Of a stretch of DNA of 35,987 bases, positions 324 through 30,758 are shown one piece after another. The stretch comes from Candidatus Liptonbacteria bacterium (lineage in GTDB: Bacteria; Patescibacteriota; Minisyncoccia; UBA6257; 2-01-FULL-56-20), in assembly GCA_016212635.1 (NCBI GenBank), contig JACRFR010000023.1, forward strand, positions 1-35,987. The letters are read 5' to 3'. Below the pieces are notes generated by a model. It had not been told where the DNA came from. It searched no databases and was given only the letters and a program-made list of their open reading frames with translations. Position 1 is the stretch's first letter; every line of letters begins with the position of its first letter. The position numbers and the translations under genes were made by a program.

Positions 324-944
324 ATGAAAGGGGATTGGACCATACAAATTCTGGAAGGGTTTAAACAGGCCGCGCTGGACCTGCCTACGGCGCTACAGGC
401 GTTTTTGGAATCGGGCTACGGGGCCAGCGCCGGGAAGATGATTCGCCGGTTCGACGAACTGCAAAACCAGAAGTTGATCGAACGCCAAGAAGACGAGTTG
501 TTTTCTCGCGAGCGGCGCCGGTTCTATAATCTCGTATCCTGGCTGAAAAAGGACGGATTGGTAGAGGCCAAGCGGCGACCGGCAGGGATCTTTTATCGAA
601 CTACCAGCAAGGGACTGAAGAAGCTTGAACATTTGTATCACAGGAAAAGTTCCGTTTTGCCCGCGCCTAGATATTCCGGCGTTCCAAGCAACCGTTTGAC
701 CATCGTCAGTTACGATATACCCGAGCGTCACCGCCGCAAGCGACGCTGGGTAAGTGCGTGTCTGCTAGGTTTGGGCTTTCAAGCCGTGCACCGGAGCGTC
801 TATCTGGGGAAGGTGGTCCTGCCGCGGGAGTTTATCCAGAGCATCGGTCGATTGAAACTAGCGGGATATTTGGAAATATTCGAGATCACTAAGTCCGGTA
901 CCTTGCGCCGACTGACCGAGCCCTCGACCGGGAGTAACTCTTAG
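324..944 (+). CDS. PaaX-like / Cas2-like fold transcriptional regulator (winged helix plus Cas2-like domain)
   Basis: 206-aa ORF; C-terminal 'LTIVSYDIPERHRRKRRWVSACLLGLGFQAVHRSVYLG' matches the PaaX-C/Cas2-like pattern (DIPe..R..R..L..lGF...qrSV); N-terminal part looks like winged helices. Confidence 0.7.
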   Translation: MKGDWTIQILEGFKQAALDLPTALQAFLESGYGASAGKMIRRFDELQNQKLIERQEDELFSRERRRFYNLVSWLKKDGLVEAKRRPAGIFYRTTSKGLKKLEHLYHRKSSVLPAPRYSGVPSNRLTIVSYDIPERHRRKRRWVSACLLGLGFQAVHRSVYLGKVVLPREFIQSIGRLKLAGYLEIFEITKSGTLRRLTEPSTGSNS

Positions 945-1027: not shown

Positions 1028-1065
1028 CTTGTATTATACCAATCGATCGACCGGTATAATACAAG
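1028..1065. promoter_or_regulatory. Palindrome downstream of PaaX/Cas2-like gene 1
   Basis: cTTGTATTATACC-aatcgatcgacc-GGTATAATACAAg, 13-bp perfect arms; shares GATCGACCRGTATAATAC with 249-284. Confidence 0.75.
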
Positions 1066-22105: not shown

Positions 22106-22145
22106 ATCTGCTAGTTTGACAACGATCGTTGTCAAACTAGCAGAT
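22106..22145. repeat. Perfect 40-bp palindrome
   Basis: ATCTGCTAGTTTGACAACGA|TCGTTGTCAAACTAGCAGAT with no loop; followed by direct repeat AACCACACTCC x2. Confidence 0.9.
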
Positions 22146-25428: not shown

Positions 25429-25472
25429 TCCATAATCTCCCCTTCGACGGCCGTCGAAGGGGAGATTATGGA
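25429..25472. repeat. Perfect 44-bp palindrome
   Basis: TCCATAATCTCCCCTTCGACGG|CCGTCGAAGGGGAGATTATGGA, no loop. Confidence 0.92.
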
Positions 25473-29511: not shown

Positions 29512-29549
29512 CATCTATTCTATTGTTCTTGAGAACAATAGAATAGATG
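29512..29549. repeat. 38-bp palindrome (18-bp arms, TG centre)
   Basis: CATCTATTCTATTGTTCT-TG-AGAACAATAGAATAGATG. Confidence 0.88.
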
Positions 29550-29559
29550 GAGGGTCTTT

Positions 29560-29931
29560 GTGCTAATGATTATGCCTGCGCCGATTAGATCTAAGGAATA
29601 TTACTGGACATTCCATGCGCGCAATAAAATGCGCCAGTACCAGTTGTCGGAGCAAAGGGTACGGCGGGTGCTCCACTCCCCGGCGCGGATCGAGGAGGGG
29701 ATTGCGCCCAATACTATTGCGGCCATGCAGGTGGTTCCCGCGCCCAAGCGCCCCTATGAGATCTGGGTCATGTTGCAATCTGTAAGTCGAAAGTCAGAAG
29801 TTAAGGGTCAAAAGTCAAAGGTCAAAGGTCACGAGTCAAAGATCATTTCCGCCTGGCGCTATCCCGGCCGCACCAAGCCCGGCGATCCTATTCCAGCGGA
29901 GATATTACGAGAGCTAAGAATGCTGGCGTGA
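29560..29931 (+). CDS. Hypothetical small protein (DUF4258-like?)
   Basis: 'YYWTFHARNKMRQYQLSEQRVRRVLHSPARIEEGIAPNTIAAMQ...IISAWRYPGRTKPGDPIP'; family assignment uncertain. Confidence 0.6.
   Translation: MLMIMPAPIRSKEYYWTFHARNKMRQYQLSEQRVRRVLHSPARIEEGIAPNTIAAMQVVPAPKRPYEIWVMLQSVSRKSEVKGQKSKVKGHESKIISAWRYPGRTKPGDPIPAEILRELRMLA
29784..29846 (+). repeat. In-frame heptamer array, 9 units of NAGTCAA
   Basis: aagtcga aagtcag aagttaa gggtcaa aagtcaa aggtcaa aggtcac gagtcaa agatcat = 63 nt (21 codons) within 29560-29931. Confidence 0.88.
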
Positions 29932-29978: not shown

Positions 29979-30016
29979 TTACCACATTATCTGGCTATGA
30001 CCAGATAATGTGGTAA
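29979..30016. promoter_or_regulatory. Palindrome upstream of PaaX/Cas2-like gene 2 (site A)
   Basis: TTACCACATTATCTGG-CTATGA-CCAGATAATGTGGTAA, 16-bp perfect arms. Confidence 0.85.
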
Positions 30017-30035
30017 AGCAATAGTGGCTCCACAC

Positions 30036-30074
30036 CACCATGTTATCTAGCTATGACCGGATAGTGTGGTAAAA
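30036..30074. promoter_or_regulatory. Imperfect palindrome upstream of gene 2 (site B)
   Basis: CTATGACCGGATAGTGTGGTAAAA direct-repeats CTATGACCAGATAATGTGGTAAAG of site A; partner arm degenerate. Confidence 0.75.
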
Positions 30075-30092
30075 TAAGTTTGATCGAAAAGC

Positions 30093-30665
30093 ATGGCTGG
30101 AATTATCCGAAGAGGGGGTAACTCTCATAAAATACTTAACACCCTGGCAATCAGCGCTGGTTTTTTGGCTATTTCACTCATTTCTCCAGGTTCCAGTGGC
30201 GTTATCGTTCAGGGATTGGTTCGGGGTTACTTTCGGAGAAGGTCTTTTGAGAAACACAGGTTTTTGAGAGACATTCGGAGGTTGCAGCGGTTAGAGATGC
30301 TAGATTTTCGCGAGCTGGCGGATGGAAATATCAGGATAACTCTGTTGAAAAATGGCCGACGCTTTGTCTTGACCGACAAATTGGATAATCTGAAAATCAA
30401 GCGACCGATAGCGTGGGACGGTAAATGGAGACTGGTAATATTCGACATTCCTCATGATCAGCGCCGCGCCCGGGATGCGTTTCGCGAGAAACTTACCGAC
30501 CTAGGCTTCCATCAGCTACAGAAAAGCGTTTTTATTATCCCATTCCCTTGCGAAAAAGAATTGGATTTTATTATGACCTACTGGAATGTCCAAGACCACG
30601 TTTTATTGCTGTATGTCAGTTCTTTTGAGGGAGAAGCCAAACTCAAGCATCACTTTGGGTTATAG
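30093..30665 (+). CDS. PaaX-like / Cas2-like fold regulator, second copy
   Basis: 'GKWRLVIFDIPHDQRRARDAFREKLTDLGFHQLQKSVFIIPFPCEKELDFI' is the PaaX-C/Cas2-like domain; N-terminal winged-helix-like segment. Confidence 0.75.
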   Translation: MAGIIRRGGNSHKILNTLAISAGFLAISLISPGSSGVIVQGLVRGYFRRRSFEKHRFLRDIRRLQRLEMLDFRELADGNIRITLLKNGRRFVLTDKLDNLKIKRPIAWDGKWRLVIFDIPHDQRRARDAFREKLTDLGFHQLQKSVFIIPFPCEKELDFIMTYWNVQDHVLLLYVSSFEGEAKLKHHFGL

Positions 30666-30712
30666 CTCGTGTTCCTTAGGCGACAGCCCGCCCCCCTCTG
30701 TTTCTTTGCTAC

Positions 30713-30758
30713 TTCTACACCACGCTATCTAGCCATAGCTAGATAGCGTGGTGTAGAA
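30713..30758. promoter_or_regulatory. Palindrome downstream of gene 2 (site C, inverted)
   Basis: TTCTACACCACGCTATCTAGC-cata-GCTAGATAGCGTGGTGTAGAA, 21-bp perfect arms; same core as sites A/B on the minus strand. Confidence 0.85.

Follow-up and report, generated by a model that had tools for sequence, protein, structure and literature searches.

A winged-helix–Cas2-like protein paired with its own long palindrome in Patescibacteria: a candidate repeat-spreading element

Introduction

Among described systems, the closest in organisation to the units reported here are the RAYT/TnpA-REP proteins with their REP/REPIN sequences (REPtron; PMC3116915, PMC8266576). In both cases, a gene lies among palindromic repeats that are also dispersed as intergenic orphans, and the repeat families are genome-specific. 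However, RAYT is a Y1/HUH nuclease, whereas the present unit encodes a winged helix followed by a Cas2-like fold. Its palindromes are long and mostly symmetric up to the centre, the GTAG tetranucleotide is not a common mark of them, and up to 14 separate protein/palindrome pairs occur in one genome. Elements of the IS200/IS605 type are likewise small, contain a single gene and have palindromic structures close to either end, but the unit described here is devoid of an HUH transposase, full-length palindromes form its outer limits and no fixed target was seen.

With respect to the protein, two other groups are comparable. PaaX, the repressor of the phenylacetate operon (8a39), also consists of a winged helix and then a Cas2-like domain. 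Unlike PaaX, the proteins studied here have no C-terminal PaaX domain and no paa operon, retain an Asp in the Cas2 fold, and belong to multicopy, patchily distributed units with palindromes on both sides. The nucleases Cas2, VapD and BPSL1038 share with them the ferredoxin fold, the Asp ending strand 1 and the Ser at the turn between strands 2 and 3, and in these nucleases the corresponding Asp pair is catalytic (PMC10491678). Differences from this group are the winged-helix fusion, a genome without Cas1 and the pairing with an own palindrome. No report of PaaX-/Cas2-like proteins with palindromes in Patescibacteria was found in the literature searched (preprints and most subscription journals lay outside the search), and the novelty lies in the pairing of this winged-helix–Cas2 protein type with private palindromes.

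Results and Discussion

Organisation of the loci in the window

The window, i.e. the whole analysed stretch of 35,987 nt, belongs to a patescibacterial genome assembly of 1.02 Mb in 65 contigs with 14 PaaX_M genes, and its relevant features are collected in Table 1. A sequence-only reading had described gene 2 as PaaX/Cas2-like, and the profile matches of its product to PaaX_M (PF20803, E 4.6e-22) and Cas2 (E 1.2e-5) agree with this. The three palindromes around the gene are placed as that reading had claimed, with the two upstream copies forming direct repeats, the second with an imperfect dyad, and with the 21-bp arms of the downstream copy being perfect; the same layout, as had also been proposed, recurs at gene 1. 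Perfect arms of 16 and 21 nt have a chance of about 4^-16 and 4^-21 per position, which places them far above chance for 36 kb. What did not survive was the GACCRG-type centre thought to be common to both families. It was ruled out by alignment of the centres, being absent from the downstream copy of gene 2 (GCCATAGC), while between genes 1 and 2 the letters stand in a different register to the dyad.

Table 1. Protein genes and palindromes located in the window.
Feature	Coordinates	Strand	Description
Gene 1	324..944	+	206-aa paralogue, second subgroup; PaaX_M E 6e-7, Cas2 E 2e-5
Gene-1 palindrome, upstream	244..289
Gene-1 palindrome, downstream	1028..1065
Orphan palindrome	22106..22145		Perfect 20-nt arms; family of the contig C46 gene
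Orphan palindrome	25429..25472		Perfect 22-nt arms; family of the contig C60 gene
Orphan palindrome	29512..29549		Perfect 18-nt arms; 7-copy family, cognate gene absent from assembly
Palindrome A, gene-2 family	29979..30016		Upstream copy; perfect 16-nt arms around 6 nt
Palindrome B, gene-2 family	30036..30074		Additional upstream copy; dyad imperfect, 86% identity to A
Gene 2	30093..30665	+	ORF, 190 aa, winged helix + Cas2-like (PaaX_M)
Palindrome C, gene-2 family	30713..30758		Downstream copy; perfect 21-nt arms around 4 nt

In a similarity search of the genome, the palindrome families of genes 1 and 2 were represented by their own flanking copies only, with no orphans. The window also holds tandem AAAGTCAAAGGTC-like short repeats at 29790-29850, within a DUF4258-like ORF (29560-29931).

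Palindrome families and their orphan copies

Inspection of the flanks in this one genome placed each of the 14 PaaX_M genes between a matching palindrome pair, perfect or imperfect. These palindromes measure about 36–46 bp and are gene-specific, with an arm sequence that changes from gene to gene, and at some genes, gene 2 included, two copies are found on one side. Palindromes scoring 15 or more numbered 101 in the 73 kb beside PaaX_M-type genes and 27 in the 457 kb lying 1.2 kb or more from them; accidental pairing of inverted repeats is excluded by this enrichment together with the perfect long arms.

When all 14 families were used as queries, most of them had orphan copies elsewhere in the genome, about ten for the C32 family and one to four for others; these counts derive from similarity searches of one draft assembly with known palindromes, in which families without a known member are missed. 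The family with seven copies (TATTCTATTGTTCT...), found in the window and on contigs C24, C26, C60, C58 and C9, lacks a cognate gene in this assembly. A second species (G186) likewise yielded at least 10 orphans from three to four families. At C64:6413-6489, C36:9917-9992 and C35:12674-12749, palindromes of the sister families C25 and C32 are fused into a composite repeat of about 76 bp, two of the three being located about 55 bp from a contig end. Furthermore, in G000 and its relatives numerous contigs have an end only a few hundred bases or less from a unit or orphan palindrome, and the assemblies therefore probably under-count both.

The intergenic location of orphans bears on the main rival explanation, according to which the proteins are lineage-expanded, autoregulated PaaX-like repressors, each paralogue binding its own operators and the scattered palindromes constituting a regulon. 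Such an origin is in agreement with the upstream palindrome, which typically ends near the start codon, but a matching copy is also present 3′ of the gene in more than 90% of cases. Orphans occupied 21 tandem, 9 convergent and 0 divergent gaps, compared with 66, 18 and 13 gaps in the background, which was taken from the same stretches (the counts are small and ORF calling was simple). That convergent gaps hold orphans and divergent gaps hold none is the reverse of operator behaviour. In light of this and of the further evidence discussed below, we consider the repressor explanation unlikely, although it deserves serious attention.

Alternatively, the palindromes could be ordinary bidirectional terminators or RNA hairpins, only incidentally associated with the genes. 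Several orphans indeed follow a stop codon by a few bases or separate convergent genes, and the outer arms of some are A- and T-rich. This explanation nevertheless appears very improbable, as copies also occur 5′ of genes, both flanks share a gene-specific sequence that co-diverges with the protein, some members have an unpaired middle, and Rfam gave no match in the window.

It could also be proposed that Y1 (HUH) transposases mobilise the palindromes in trans as REPs, with the Cas2-like genes as passengers or captured regulators. The genome does carry three Y1_Tnp genes, two of them adjoining palindromes, yet those palindromes are different and GC-rich, the queried PaaX-type palindromes map to none of those loci, and it is with the Cas2-like protein that the PaaX-type palindromes co-diverge; we regard this scenario as improbable. 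In profile searches, the unit protein matches PaaX_M and Cas2 and not Y1_Tnp. At C40:8543-8773 and C31:6429-6659 of G000 (L343, L344), Y1_Tnp genes are located near their own GC-rich long palindromes and are probable true RAYT/REP units, and with such different palindromes in the same genome two systems may coexist.

Anatomy of the palindrome

A profile was built from the palindromes of 60 gene pairs, with positions counted from the dyad. Positions 1–4 are almost fixed, the commonest classes being CGATCG or CGGCCG and another class being GCCATGGC. Positions 5–8 vary and yet are paired in 77–93%, while positions 9–18 are gene-specific and paired in 82–100%, and the symmetry fades by about position 20. 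Where upstream and downstream copies differ at positions 9–18, both arms had changed together in 39/71 cases, compared with 20/353 in the flanks, which indicates that the symmetry itself is kept up, via selection or via copying from one arm to the other. The middle of the palindrome is unpaired in many deeper relatives, so that the outer arms and the centre represent its constant elements. In the palindromes of the 60 genes, G is scarce in the 5′ arm at positions 6–15 (2–10%), creating a strand asymmetry. In addition, the gene-proximal arm of upstream palindromes (e.g. L100, L112, L151) often carries a TATAAT-like box 6–9 nt 5′ of the ATG, which would imply a promoter within the palindrome and a leaderless mRNA.

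Co-divergence of protein and palindrome

Across 72 genes, protein identity correlated with half-site similarity (Mantel r = 0.44, permutation p ~0.0005). For partial correlations, the protein was split at residue 104 into its winged-helix and Cas2 parts. Similarity of the Cas2 domain followed that of the palindrome centre once the winged-helix effect was removed (partial r 0.44, p = 0.001), and similarity of the winged helix followed that of the outer arm once the Cas2 effect was removed, where the correlation was small (partial r 0.14–0.17, p = 0.001). The converse partial correlations were about zero or negative, and the domain-wise correlations persisted when each subgroup was taken singly and when different genomes were compared. 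The suggestion that these are paralogous protein/palindrome pairs that have diverged together thus finds support in the own pair present at all 14 paralogues and in the overall correlation, which resolves by domain. Such domain-wise co-divergence predicts a symmetric complex with a Cas2 dimer on the dyad. It would suit any DNA-binding protein, repressors included. Recognition of its own palindrome by each protein is, in our opinion, very likely on these sequence comparisons. The sequence-only reading went as far as recognition; the orphans, the unit-less sites, the invariant Cas2 residues and the phylum-wide spread go beyond it.

Protein fold and conserved residues

In the AlphaFold2 model of the gene 2 product (mean pLDDT 89.6), a winged helix at residues 37–84 precedes a ferredoxin fold at residues 112–175, and the model of the gene 1 product presents the same architecture (mean pLDDT 89.7). 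The score for full-length PaaX (TIGR02277) is 28.9 bits, below the cut-off of 264.55, and the gene 2 product is devoid of the PaaX C-terminal domain. With respect to the NCBIfam cas2 model (cut-off 24.5 bits), gene 2 scores 27.7 and gene 1 scores 22.4, only a partial match. A search for Cas1 in the source genome found none, and association with CRISPR was dismissed on that ground.

Among solved structures, E. coli PaaX (8a39, E 7e-6) is the best match, followed by Cas2. Together with the winged-helix domain, this match to a repressor speaks in favour of the repressor explanation. Against it, the Cas2 Asp is invariant here, while in our reading of the alignments the equivalent residue is Glu for E. 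coli PaaX and Thr for Rv0674. Both Asp118 and Ser145 are conserved in 72/72 aligned proteins, and the Asp motif was recovered from the relatives' set for 85/85 genes and from further loci for 105/109. It is from these conserved residues that we infer catalysis, and we regard the protein as a self-specific DNA binder that is probably a nuclease. Alternatively, the invariant Asp and Ser could be structural.

Distribution over Patescibacteria

PaaX_M genes are patchily distributed, being found in 34/61 genomes among relatives and in 95/294 genomes drawn across the phylum, with 1–14 copies per carrying genome (0–14 overall), some of them disrupted. A flank motif, defined as a segment common to both flanks with an identity of 25/36 or more, accompanied 72/79 genes of relatives. 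It was also found at 70/75 loci of an independent collection (the best 80 of 485 relatives) and at 16/25 of the best phylum matches, as opposed to 9/287 control positions. Titles in the independent collection name Patescibacteria lineages, e.g. Jorgensenbacteria, Azambacteria and Curtissbacteria, and one 'Deltaproteobacteria' MAG. Homologues mostly without flanking palindromes, which the sequence-only reading had named as evidence against itself, are thus not what was observed among relatives or in the independent collection. With a strict test for paired palindromes, the last two sets gave 28/75 and 4/25, against 70/75 and 16/25 with the shared-flank test. An obligatory hairpin is weakened as a candidate by the unpaired middle of many members in the wider Patescibacteria.

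The unit in the 'Deltaproteobacteria' MAG (L286) has typical palindromes and points either to transfer beyond the phylum or to an error in binning. Carriage by viruses was rejected, as IMG/VR gave a single viral relative, without paired palindromes.

The palindromes of the source genome had no full match in the loci of other species that were compared, where one common outer arm was accompanied by a different centre. On these comparisons, the palindrome families appear private to the genome, and spread is indicated by orphans within the genome, with none seen between genomes. Such privacy argues against the repressor explanation, as does E. coli paaX, which has no such flanking palindromes.

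Loci with and without the unit

Three species of one genus (G008, G032 and G026) were compared at three loci, named leuS, thrS and tsaD from our reading of the flanking sequence. At leuS, G008 carries the unit and G032 lacks it, with 1058 and 282 bp, respectively, between conserved flanks. At the other two loci, the unit is present in G008 and G032 and absent in G026, the corresponding distances being 923 and 186 bp at thrS (G032 vs G026) and about 1.7 and 0.6 kb at tsaD. The two orthologous units at thrS have diverged jointly in protein and palindrome. No leftover palindrome was seen at the inspected empty sites, and these three filled/empty comparisons, in which the flanks are too diverged to define junctions, revealed no transposition intermediate or target duplication. 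Presence or absence of the unit as a block is established at these loci, where loss and gain would look alike, and this coming or going as a block is a further point against the repressor explanation.

Proposed element

Taken as a repeat-spreading element, the unit would consist of a truncated PaaX (winged helix and Cas2-like ferredoxin domain, no ligand domain) and its own long palindrome. The protein most likely binds this palindrome as a symmetric dimer, with two winged helices placed on the gene-specific outer arms, about 9–18 bp from the dyad, and with the centre (CGATCG, CGGCCG, GCCATGGC or similar) covered by the Cas2-like dimer, which bears the conserved Asp pair. The protein probably nicks or cuts this DNA at the dyad or close to it, and repair or recombination at the cut could duplicate, spread or remove palindromes and the whole palindrome-gene-palindrome unit. 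Orphan palindromes would represent non-autonomous repeats left behind, as in the life cycle of RAYT/REPIN, and the palindrome just 5′ of the gene probably also limits the gene's own expression. Dimer binding, the route of mobilisation, autoregulation and transposition of the unit are steps that we infer.

We find it fairly likely that the protein/palindrome pair acts as a repeat-spreading element with a RAYT/REPIN-like organisation and an unrelated protein. The fuller proposal is more tentative: it is quite possible that this is a new small mobile element, of which Patescibacteria hold many private versions, and whose winged-helix–Cas2 nuclease cuts the dyad of its own palindrome and thereby spreads or homes both that palindrome and itself.

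If true, a phylum with very small genomes would hold a protein/palindrome system able to spread in the absence of a known transposase, and Cas2 would be found outside CRISPR as a mobile-element enzyme, the Cas2-fold counterpart of RAYT/REPIN. The same fold and active-site Asp, seen here with an own palindrome and no Cas1, also have a bearing on the origin of Cas2. From dozens of naturally diverged protein/site pairs, the rules by which winged helices and Cas2 dimers read DNA could be derived and tested. Finally, such elements could account for many Patescibacteria genes that match PaaX or Cas2 models.
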